Positions 19,754 to 26,598 of a stretch of 64,000 nucleotides of DNA are shown here, piece by piece (the first letter of the stretch is position 1; every line of letters begins with the position of its first letter). The stretch spans positions 372,001-436,000 of the forward strand of contig NZ_JAJFAV010000004.1 of assembly GCF_020711235.1 (NCBI RefSeq). The letters run 5' to 3'. This DNA is from Hymenobacter sp. 15J16-1T3B (lineage in GTDB: Bacteria; Bacteroidota; Bacteroidia; Cytophagales; Hymenobacteraceae). The position numbers and the translations under genes were made by a program. The notes beneath the pieces are model-generated. The model was not told where the DNA came from and searched no databases. It saw nothing but the letters and a program-made list of their open reading frames with translations.

Positions 19754-20803
19754 CTACGCAGTGGTGCCGCCACAGCTGGAGCCGGCGCCGGCCGTGCAGC
19801 CGTAGCAGTGCTGGTTGACCACCACGGCGCGCTCGGCCAGCCGGGCCGCGTCGAAGTCGCGGATGTGGCGCACGGGGCTGGCCACAGTCAGGTCGAGCAT
19901 CTGGTTGAAGTCGCAGTCGTAGAGTTGCCCGTCCCAGCCCACCGAAACGGTGCTGCGGCACATAACGCCGGCGGCGGCGCCGGGGTTGAAGGCCGTTACC
20001 AGCTTTTCCATGTAGCCCGCGTAGTTGCCCGATTCGATCAGGTAATCGAGGTAGCGGCTGACGGGAATGTTGGTAATGGCGAAGAGCTGGTTGAACACGA
20101 TGCCGTGGTCCTTGAGCAGGGCCCGTTTGAAGTCCCGCTCCAGCCCGGCCTGCGACGACGGCATAAACGCCCCGGCGGGGTTATACACCAGGTTCAGCGT
20201 CAGGCCGCTGCCTTCCTGCCCGTAGCCCACGGCGTTGAGCATTTTCAGGGCCCGGATGGAATCCTCAAACACCCCGTCGCCGCGCTGCCGGTCGGTTTTG
20301 CTGGCGTTGTAGAAGGGCAGGGAGCTGACCACTTCCACGCCGTGCGCCCGGAAAAACTCCGGCAGGTCGTGGTACTTCTTGTTGGCCACGATGATGGTCA
20401 GGTTGCAGCGCACGATGATGTGGCGGCCCAGAGCGTGAATCTGCTCCACAAACCAGCGGAAATCCGGGTTCATCTCGGGCGCCCCGCCCGTCAGGTCCAC
20501 CGTCGGAATGTCGCTTTGGGCCAGCGCATCCAAGCAGAGCTGCATGGTCGCGCGGGTCATGATTTCCTTGCGGTCCGGCCCGGCGTCGACGTGGCAGTGC
20601 TTGCACACCTGGTTGCACATCTTGCCCACGTTTACCTGCAGCACCGCCGGGGTCAGGGGCCGCAGCGGAAACAGCCCGGCCTCGCGCATTTTGTGGGCGA
20701 AGGGCGGCAGGTGGGCGCCCTCGGCCTGGTCGGGCCGGAGCACGGTGAGCTGGTAGGCCGGGTCGGCGAGCAGGCTGCCGGTGGCTTTGAGGGACTTGAT
20801 CAT
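19754..20803 (-). CDS. arsS: Arsenosugar biosynthesis radical SAM protein ArsS
   Basis: 349 residues. The radical SAM cluster motif is Cys63-x3-Cys67-x2-Cys70 (CNQVCKHCHVDAGP), followed by DLTGGAPEMNPDFRW. The C-terminal half carries CRSTVSVGWDGQLYDCDFNQ and ends HCYGCTAGAGSSCGG, the Cys-rich tail of the ArsS family (DUF3641 region), where some members have selenocysteine; here all positions are Cys. ArsS transfers a 5'-deoxyadenosyl group from S-adenosylmethionine to dimethylarsenite, an early step to arsenosugars. The matching ArsM methyltransferase lies at 25630. It is the last gene of a minus-strand cluster, 124 bases after the SDR gene. Confidence 0.92.
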   Translation of the reverse strand: MIKSLKATGSLLADPAYQLTVLRPDQAEGAHLPPFAHKMREAGLFPLRPLTPAVLQVNVGKMCNQVCKHCHVDAGPDRKEIMTRATMQLCLDALAQSDIPTVDLTGGAPEMNPDFRWFVEQIHALGRHIIVRCNLTIIVANKKYHDLPEFFRAHGVEVVSSLPFYNASKTDRQRGDGVFEDSIRALKMLNAVGYGQEGSGLTLNLVYNPAGAFMPSSQAGLERDFKRALLKDHGIVFNQLFAITNIPVSRYLDYLIESGNYAGYMEKLVTAFNPGAAAGVMCRSTVSVGWDGQLYDCDFNQMLDLTVASPVRHIRDFDAARLAERAVVVNQHCYGCTAGAGSSCGGTTA

Positions 20804-20927
20804 GGAGAAAAAAAGGCTGCAGCCAGGGGCGCGGCACTGGCAGGTACACGATAGGAACTGCCGGTGGGCCGCTCCCGGCTGCTACTACCTACGCAATCCG
20901 GCCGGTTGGCAGATGTGGGCGCGCTGC

Positions 20928-21779
20928 TTATTCGTACAAGTTACGCAGCCGGCGCAGACTCCGCCGCACCACCCAGTCGCCGAGGCCGGGCAGCAGCGTG
21001 TGCACCAGCACGATAAGCCTACCCAGGGCCGAAATAACCGTGCGCTGCCGCCGCTGCTGCACGTGCCGCACGATGATGCGGGCCACCTCGGCCTGGGTTT
21101 TCTGCCAGCGCGGGGGGCGGTGGGCAATGGGCACGGGCTGGCCCTGGGCGTCGAGCACGCGCTTGTCGGGGTCGTTTTGGGTGAAGCCGATGTGCACGAC
21201 CCCGACGTGCACCCCCGTCTCGGCCAGCTCCAGGCGCAGGGTGTGGGCCAGGTTGGCCAGGGCCGCCTTGCCCGCGCAGTAGGCCGAGCCCGAGGGCATG
21301 CCGTTCAGCGCCGAAATCGACGAGATGAACGTGACGCTGCCGCGGCTGGCCACCAGGTGCGGCAGCGCGGCCTTGAGCGGAAACACCGAGCCGTACACGT
21401 TGCTGTCGAGCACCCGGCGGAACACCTCGGGCTGCATGTCGGCGAAGTAGGCCCGCTGCGAGATGCTGGCGTTGGTGATGAGAATGTCGAGGCGGCCAAA
21501 CGTCGCCAGCGTCGCGGCCACCAGCCGTTCACAGGCCGCGTAGTCGGTCACGTCGGCCACGCAGCCGGTCACGCGCAGCCCTTCGCCCCGGAGCAGCGCC
21601 TGGGTGCGGGCCAGGCGCTCGGGGCAGCGGCCGTTGAGCACCACGGCGGCGCCCAGCTCGCCCAGCACCCGCGCCGTCTCGCGCCCGATGCCCGACTCGG
21701 AGCCGGTGACAAGGGCCACGCGCCCGGCCAGCGGACCGGGGCGGCCGGCGGTTGGCGCCGTGGTAAGTAGATCAGACAT
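20928..21779 (-). CDS. SDR family oxidoreductase in arsenosugar cluster
   Basis: 283 residues, a classical short-chain dehydrogenase/reductase: nucleotide loop TGSESGIG near residue 26, DILITNAS, catalytic Ser in FISSISALNG, and the YCAGK Tyr/Lys pair. The C-terminal extension (RLIVLVHTLLPGLGDWVVRR) is hydrophobic and basic, suggesting membrane contact. Its first 8 bases overlap the end of the epimerase gene, so the two are translationally coupled. Its place inside an ArsS/ArsM cluster suggests it reduces or oxidises a sugar-arsenic intermediate; that role is inferred from context only. Confidence 0.88.
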   Translation of the reverse strand: MSDLLTTAPTAGRPGPLAGRVALVTGSESGIGRETARVLGELGAAVVLNGRCPERLARTQALLRGEGLRVTGCVADVTDYAACERLVAATLATFGRLDILITNASISQRAYFADMQPEVFRRVLDSNVYGSVFPLKAALPHLVASRGSVTFISSISALNGMPSGSAYCAGKAALANLAHTLRLELAETGVHVGVVHIGFTQNDPDKRVLDAQGQPVPIAHRPPRWQKTQAEVARIIVRHVQQRRQRTVISALGRLIVLVHTLLPGLGDWVVRRSLRRLRNLYE

Positions 21780-25511: not shown

Positions 25512-25629
25512 GTCCCGCCGCGGCGCCCCGAAGCCACTTGACCTGAGCGGAGCGGCTGCTGCTGGCCGGCCCCTGGCTCGGACCCATACCCTGATTTTCT
25601 ACTGTCTTTTCATACCCCCGCCTCTTCGG

Positions 25630-26598
25630 ATGAGCTATTTAGAAACCACCGCCGACGTGTACCGCCAGGCGGCCCAGGAGCCCCAGGTGGGCCTGTGCTG
25701 CACCACCAACCCCGTGTGGCAGCTGCCCGGCCTGAGCATTCCCCAGCGCATGCTCTCCATGAACTACGGCTGCGGCAGCACCGTGAACCCGCGTGACCTG
25801 ACGGGCAGCCCCACCGTGCTCTACGTGGGGGTGGGCGGCGGCATGGAGCTGCTGCAGTTTGCCTACTTCAGCCGCCGCTCCGGGGCCGTCATCGGCGTCG
25901 ACGTGGTGCCCGAAATGCTGGAGGCCTCGCGCCAGAACATGCGCACGGCCGAGGAGCAGAACGAGTGGTTTCGCCGCGAATTCGTGGATTTGCGCGCCGG
26001 CGACGCCCTGCACCTGCCGGTGGAAGACGCCAGCGTGGACGTGGCCGCCCAAAACTGCCTGTTCAATATCTTCAAGCTCGACGACCTGAAGCGGGCCCTG
26101 CAGGAAACCTACCGCGTGCTCAAGCCCCACGGCCGCCTCGTCATGTCGGACCCCACCTGCGAGCAGCCCATGAGCGAGGAGCTGCGCGCCGATGAGCGCC
26201 TGCGGGCTTTGTGCCTCACCGGCTCTTTGCCCCTGCAGCAGTACCTAGATTTGATTACCTCCGTGGGCTTCGGCACGGTGGAAGTGCGGGCTCGGCGCGC
26301 CTACCGCGTCCTCTCGCCCCAGCACTACGCCACCGACGAGCTGATTTACATCGAGAGCGTGGAGGTGTGCGCCATCAAGGACCCCATGCCTGCCGACGGC
26401 CCCTGCATCTTCACCGGCCGCACCGCCATTTACTACGGCGGCGAGGAACTCTTCGACGACCAGAAAGGCCACGTGCTGCTGCAAAACCAGCCTTTGGCCG
26501 TGTGCGACAAAACCGCCAAGGCCCTGCTCGCCCTCGGCCGCGACGATATTTTCGTTTCGCCCTCCACCTACCACTACGACGGCGGCGGCTGCTGCTAG
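25630..26598 (+). CDS. arsM: Arsenite methyltransferase ArsM, arsenosugar pathway type
   Basis: 322 residues. The S-adenosylmethionine fold is marked by VLYVGVGGGMELLQFAYF, GVDVVPEMLEASRQN and VDVAAQNCLFNIF. Candidate arsenic-binding cysteines are in GLCCTTNP near the N-terminus, NCLF and DPTCEQP; the protein ends STYHYDGGGCC. The GLCC opening and the Gly-Cys tail belong to the ArsM type found with ArsS. It methylates arsenite to mono- and dimethylated arsenic, the substrate for ArsS. It is transcribed away from arsS, after the DUF547 gene, and a strong terminator follows. Confidence 0.92.
   Translation: MSYLETTADVYRQAAQEPQVGLCCTTNPVWQLPGLSIPQRMLSMNYGCGSTVNPRDLTGSPTVLYVGVGGGMELLQFAYFSRRSGAVIGVDVVPEMLEASRQNMRTAEEQNEWFRREFVDLRAGDALHLPVEDASVDVAAQNCLFNIFKLDDLKRALQETYRVLKPHGRLVMSDPTCEQPMSEELRADERLRALCLTGSLPLQQYLDLITSVGFGTVEVRARRAYRVLSPQHYATDELIYIESVEVCAIKDPMPADGPCIFTGRTAIYYGGEELFDDQKGHVLLQNQPLAVCDKTAKALLALGRDDIFVSPSTYHYDGGGCC

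Follow-up and report, generated by a model that had tools for sequence, protein, structure and literature searches.

An apparently separable glycosyltransferase-epimerase module between arsM and arsS in Hymenobacter sp. 15J16-1T3B, and TIGR04169 as a near-strict ArsS partner

ArsS of Synechocystis sp. PCC 6803 acts together with ArsM in the first steps of the arsenosugar pathway, and arsenic is adenosylated by a radical S-adenosylmethionine (SAM) enzyme (PMC8552651, PMC12159101). Both enzyme families are also present in Hymenobacter sp. 15J16-1T3B (genome size 6.33 Mb), within the 64,000-nucleotide stretch of contig NZ_JAJFAV010000004.1 analysed here (positions 372,001 to 436,000; hereafter the window), but in this locus arsM and arsS flank an operon encoding a GT2 glycosyltransferase, an epimerase-like and a classical short-chain dehydrogenase/reductase (SDR) and an Omp85-type barrel, together with a DUF547 gene, and a DUF6134 gene lies beyond. 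In other Bacteroidota, arsS is found with TIGR04169, rhodanese and TIGR04282 genes and sometimes with a purine nucleoside phosphorylase gene; removal of adenine is the step proposed for the phosphorylase when it stands beside ArsS. To our knowledge, how bacteria turn what ArsS makes into complete arsenosugars and arsenolipids is an open question. Genes named TIGR04282 or 'arsenosugar glycosyltransferase' appear in two papers on other bacteria (PMC8801600, PMC13077682), with no bearing on the present locus.

The comparison moderately favours two functional units at one locus, an arsenosugar unit and a separable module. The latter, whose genes are of sugar and envelope types and have no arsenic neighbours in many relatives, probably has a job of its own, joining the arsenic pathway in some cases only. 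The middle genes are treated as a separable module because of their separability, the independence of ArsS and the existence of ArsS-less copies. The features concerned are:

19754 to 20803, minus strand: arsS (TIGR04167, 441 bits, cut-off 300; CX3CX2C at residue 63), by family role a radical SAM enzyme joining 5'-deoxyadenosyl to arsenic.
20928 to 21779, minus strand: classical SDR oxidoreductase, core of the putative separable module (NF004825, 224 bits, cut-off 215; PF00106; TGSESGIG at 25, YxxxK at 167).
21772 to 22779, minus strand: extended SDR, 'epimerase-like' (HpnA-like), also module core (PF01370, 113 bits; TIGR03466, 249 bits, cut-off 368; YxxxK at 149).
22779 to 23471, minus strand: GT2 glycosyltransferase of family TIGR04283 (227 bits, cut-off 182).
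23483 to 24577, minus strand: short barrel of Omp85 type, belonging to the module in many but not all cases (PF01103, 41 bits, cut-off 24; NF047779, 73 bits, cut-off 200).
24699 to 25511, plus strand: DUF547 protein with a signal-like N-terminus, found with both units (PF04784, 116 bits, cut-off 27).
25630 to 26598, plus strand: arsM, arsenosugar-type As(III) SAM methyltransferase (NF038099, 559 bits, cut-off 400; cysteine stretches align with PDB 4kw7).
26665 to 27312, plus strand: DUF6134 protein with a predicted all-beta fold that accompanies the epimerase almost strictly (PF19630, 48 bits, cut-off 28).
20917 to 24684: segment without counterpart in locus L068 (in L071, from 20829), covering SDR, epimerase, GT2 and barrel (blastn).
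26606 to 27481: a further segment that both L068 and L071 lack, covering DUF6134 (blastn).

Read in map order from ArsS through DUF6134, the gaps are 124, -8, -1, 11, 121, 118 and 66 bases, DUF547 being taken to start with the ATG of position 24699 (its longest frame opens at 24525). A preliminary description of the window had named seven of these genes (ArsS, ArsM, barrel, GT2, epimerase, SDR and DUF547), all of which lie where it placed them, and the overlaps of 1 and 8 bases that it gave for the minus-strand operon are exact. ArsS and ArsM, which it had called recognisable, both score well above the cut-offs of their profile models. Its cluster extent of 19754-26598 fits the named genes but ends too early, DUF6134 having been overlooked. 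Chance is excluded as an explanation of these assignments because of the profile scores and the identical order in other species.

Separation of the module from the arsenic genes was seen in both directions. Sixty loci were read around ArsS and 20 more around the epimerase, ArsS or ArsM; gene sets were taken from tblastn, since a simple gene caller mislabels a few genes (DUF547 in L071), while phosphorylase counts come from the gene caller. L068 and L071, from the same genus, match the window on both sides, with immediate flanks at 87-92% (blastn), and keep ArsM, DUF547 and ArsS, but lack the SDR-epimerase-GT2-barrel segment and, separately, the DUF6134 segment. No epimerase or DUF6134 match was found elsewhere in their genomes (G020 and G035). 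The two loci are sisters on the ArsS tree and so possibly reflect one event. The module is likewise missing from the locus in L070 and L091, whose outer flanks could not be aligned, and the genome of L091 (G067) carries the module on another contig.

Conversely, the module is found without ArsS. Among 100 genomes of the family, epimerase and DUF6134 occur almost only together (23 both, one epimerase only, none DUF6134 only, 76 neither; p=9.7e-22); ArsS and epimerase are unassociated (21 both, 56 ArsS only, three epimerase only, 20 neither; p=0.26, and p=1 in the two genera having the epimerase). The epimerase occupies 25 places in 24 of the 100 genomes, with ArsS within ~10 kb at 20 of the 25. 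A wider set of named epimerase loci, the best 80 of 83 candidates found by alignment of 20 epimerases, includes 37 without ArsS in the available stretch, four of them uncertain, with a contig end within 3.5 kb (three in the tree set, and L219). The commonest single set among the named loci is DUF6134-DUF547-GT2-epimerase-SDR without any arsenic gene, seen at 18 Hymenobacter loci. Copies of the Spirosoma type occur as barrel-GT2-epimerase-SDR alone; two Fibrella loci show only the epimerase and SDR, which are therefore regarded as the innermost pair. Thirty-one genomes with an ArsS-less locus were searched (six of the 37 loci, L190, L209, L215, L219, L220 and L222, fall outside this search). 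Nine had no ArsS anywhere, and six of these hold GT2, epimerase and SDR; of the other three, L205 has no SDR, and L210 and L211 carry an epimerase relative alone.

Open frames and constraint in ArsS-less genomes suggest that the module is kept up where ArsS is missing. GT2, epimerase and SDR frames are open in all seven ArsS-less genomes compared (L125 (G089), L146, L147, L161, L206, L212 and L216), and both dehydrogenases keep YxxxK in each. The ratio of non-synonymous to synonymous substitution rates (dN/dS) was 0.05-0.31 in eight pairs among genomes without any ArsS, 0.03-0.29 in eight pairs of loci without adjoining ArsS (up to five genes; most of these genomes have ArsS elsewhere) and 0.01-0.26 in eight pairs of loci with ArsS. 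DUF6134 frames from L174, L196 and L190, which have a stop inside the chosen stretch, were left out; many whole-genome DUF6134 matches show one stop, assumed to be the gene's own end. On a tree of module proteins (GT2, epimerase and SDR; 71 rows, 68 with known ArsS state, ten of the 80 loci having been dropped for lacking one of the three genes or failing a filter, and three more having no ArsS state), ArsS at the locus switches between present and absent seven times by parsimony and at least five times by starred branches. By tree path, the module proteins closest to those of the window belong to Hymenobacter telluris and H. nitidus.

Several observations weigh against two distinct units. The genomes are related, so the p-values given here are descriptive and overstate the evidence; a weak association links ArsM to the epimerase (p=0.012). 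The synonymous rate is saturated in the pair L206-L212, and pairwise dN/dS spans an ancestry that may once have had ArsS. DUF547 fails to separate the units, as it occurs with ArsM and ArsS where the module is missing and with the module in 21 of the 37 named loci without ArsS, and the fold match of DUF6134 (below) is weak. In 22 of the 31 genomes searched, ArsS is encoded elsewhere. Furthermore, 43 of the 80 named loci have ArsS downstream of the SDR, on the same strand in 43/43, with 78-644 bp between the aligned parts; this arrangement, seen in Hymenobacter and in Spirosoma, spans two bacterial families and speaks for a functional connection at these loci if nowhere else, so that the module may have a coupled role where it adjoins ArsS.

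This adjacency, the presence of a distant ArsS in those 22 genomes and the name that NCBI gives TIGR04283, arsenosugar glycosyltransferase, are what would be expected if GT2, epimerase and SDR were dedicated to building a specific arsenosugar or arsenolipid from what ArsS makes, with ArsS-less copies being remnants or using an ArsS encoded at a distance. Such dedicated tailoring is nevertheless thought rather unlikely, given the seven genomes with an intact GT2-epimerase-SDR set and no ArsS, the lack of association between ArsS and epimerase across the 100 genomes, and the four loci (L068, L070, L071 and L091) with ArsM-DUF547-ArsS and no module. The preliminary description had proposed that the SDR, epimerase and DUF547 could define a particular arsenosugar or arsenolipid; the same lines of evidence weaken that proposal, with adjacency in 43 of 80 loci left in its favour. 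The gene-order comparison around arsS and arsM in other Bacteroidota that it called for thus yielded frequent ArsS linkage, but also module-free and ArsS-free loci. As for the name, TIGR04283 was found in 62/77 genomes with ArsS versus 9/23 without (p=0.00038), and is thus associated with, yet not exclusive to, arsenosugar genes; this phyletic profile lowers trust in the NCBI arsenosugar name. TIGR04282 scored over its cut-off in 77/77 genomes with ArsS and 11/23 without, and was rejected as a discriminating marker because it is too widespread.

The independence of ArsS and epimerase across genomes, the mobility of ArsS within the family and the presence of a TIGR04169-rhodanese-TIGR04282 locus without ArsS in the same Hymenobacter genome could also arise if ArsS and ArsM had only become neighbours of an unrelated envelope module and shared no biochemistry with it. 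A chance neighbourhood of this kind is considered improbable: order and strand are conserved across two families even though, in the 43 ArsS-linked loci, epimerase identity to the window's copy is just 56-78%; ArsM, where present, lies between DUF6134 and DUF547, and TIGR04169 lies between SDR and ArsS in 30 of the 43. Two separable units at one locus stay the preferred explanation.

The arsenosugar unit itself has a closer partner than the module. TIGR04169 (AhpD-like) is a near-strict partner of ArsS: among the 100 family genomes, 76 have both, one has ArsS only, none has TIGR04169 only and 23 have neither (p=9.7e-22). The two genes covary inside four variable genera with a single exception (G091), and in 9 of the 76 genomes both are kept although they are >10 kb apart or on other contigs. 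ArsM of the NF038099 family was found in 32 of the 100 genomes, with ArsS in 32/32, which supports the view that ArsS and ArsM, whose sequences fit arsenosugar-type families, belong together. In 17 of the 77 genomes with ArsS no ArsM was found by NF038099 or NF008823 at E <= 1e-40. Beside ArsS in L066 (8109-9323) is a gene for a 404-aa ArsM-like methyltransferase that scores under the ArsM model cut-offs (NF008823, 191 against 263), and L090 and L129 have weak ArsM-like matches adjoining ArsS. Purine nucleoside phosphorylase was present in 7 of the 60 ArsS loci, and also in L199, L201 and L204.

The Hymenobacter genome has the same ArsS family as the usual Bacteroidota loci and keeps their TIGR04169-rhodanese-TIGR04282 trio in the usual order, on contig 33 (L226, G000:C33:91500-111400, 9781-11428), but ArsS is missing from that locus and is located in the window instead. 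TIGR04169 at G000:C33:101292 scores 197 bits against a cut-off of 120, and the surrounding stretch has genes in common with L064, L069 and L086 over ~17 kb, with the left arm reversed. L069 has ArsS between TIGR04169 and rhodanese, the same gap from which it is absent on contig 33. None of the four companion families of the usual arsS locus (TIGR04169, rhodanese, TIGR04282 and purine nucleoside phosphorylase) gave a tblastn match in the window; the remaining genome was not searched for a phosphorylase. On the ArsS tree the window protein falls in a clade of 28 rows, 20 of which adjoin the module. ArsS may have moved from the usual operon to the window, or may have been replaced by a copy from elsewhere.

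A working model can be assembled from these families. By the chemistry established for the two families, ArsM would methylate arsenite to dimethylarsenite and ArsS would join a 5'-deoxyadenosyl group to the arsenic, with TIGR04169 presumably acting alongside ArsS. The separable module would comprise GT2, the epimerase-like and the classical SDR and DUF6134, joined in many cases by the Omp85-type barrel, and DUF547 would accompany both units. GT2 might attach a sugar to a lipid or a carrier of that kind, the two dehydrogenases might oxidise and then re-reduce (epimerise) that sugar, and DUF6134, with its EipB/LolA-like shape, and the barrel might transport the product or install it in the outer membrane. 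Signal-like starts, the EipB/LolA likeness of DUF6134 and the TonB/SusD-like neighbours of L206 are the reasons for reading the module as an envelope glycolipid or glycan maker, a product whose synthesis could often be coupled to that of arsenosugars. At the ArsS-less locus L206, genes for a TonB-dependent receptor, a SusD-like protein and a DUF4397 protein lie just upstream; a frame of ~1030 aa and two smaller ones also lie upstream of the module in the ArsS-less loci L206 and L212 (2400-8000). Where ArsS adjoins, the module may also accept the arsenic riboside. A bolder proposal, doubtful as it is, holds that in species with both units the module would use the arsenic riboside produced by ArsM and ArsS as a sugar unit, epimerise it while bound to a lipid carrier and insert it into the outer membrane. 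This would amount to an envelope arsenolipid route grafted on a general glycolipid pathway whose normal sugar is free of arsenic.

ArsS has CNQVCKHC at residue 63 and HCYGC at 332 (C[YF]GC from 333), both motifs, CX3CX2C and C[YF]GC, being present in 74/74 extracted ArsS rows; a search against PDB sequences gave no match at E 0.01. Cys48, Cys143 and Cys195 of ArsM lie in stretches that align with YGCGST, NC and CLGG of 4kw7, an arsenic methyltransferase, and presumably match the arsenic-site cysteines of crystallised ArsM; the GCG and NC motifs are present in 30/30 ArsM rows. The SDR and GT2 both exceed curated cut-offs. The barrel is a putative, weak Omp85 member, PF01103 being its sole Pfam match, and another short Omp85-type barrel (13112-14344; PF01103, 31 bits) lies ~9 kb away. 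Signal-like N-termini, read off the sequences, are present in the barrel, DUF547 and DUF6134 and absent from GT2 and the two dehydrogenases. A second TIGR04283 GT2 in the genome (G000:C22:484729; L227 9700-10524) is away from ArsS and adjoins a 2934-aa repetitive frame.

The DUF6134 model is all-beta, with a predicted local distance difference test score (pLDDT) of 89.1, and its best Foldseek match is the DUF1849 protein 6ntr (EipB; E 4e-4), followed by a LolA. The predicted all-beta shape is shared with EipB, but identity is 7%, the template modelling (TM) score is 0.49 and the two belong to different Pfam families. EipB is described as a LolA/LolB-like periplasmic envelope-integrity protein whose mechanism is not known (PMC10787603). 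The DUF547 model is fair (pLDDT 83.7) and its best PDB fold match was no better than E 0.79, so no mechanism is drawn from it. The epimerase resembles HpnA of the hopanoid pathway (TIGR03466, 249 bits) but scores under the family cut-off of 368, and HpnA membership was rejected; among the eight cluster proteins scanned, none had another hopanoid family as its top match. HpnH of the same pathway, a radical SAM adenosyl transferase by the name of its profile model, offers a possible parallel to ArsS, drawn here by analogy.

The interest of the locus lies in the putative separable module, the near-strict pairing of ArsS with TIGR04169 and the displacement of ArsS. Co-retention across the 100 genomes marks TIGR04169 as the near-strict ArsS partner even when the genes are apart, and shows TIGR04283 to be tied less closely to ArsS than its arsenosugar name implies. 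The comparison also advises caution in assigning every gene between arsM and arsS to arsenic chemistry, GT2, epimerase, SDR and DUF6134 appearing to form a separable unit. Natural presence and absence pairs make both the ArsS-TIGR04169 partnership and the separability of the module testable in culturable environmental strains. Judged by title and opening of the abstract, no paper among those listed from the open-licence part of PubMed Central concerned the module, and none there combined Hymenobacter with arsenosugars. A promoter scan gave zero matches and terminators were at chance level (6 found, against 5.9 in shuffles). Elsewhere in the window there are GH31 enzymes at 8735-11866 and 31404-34211, and a GH3 glycoside hydrolase fused to a beta-lactamase-family domain at 43644-47126.

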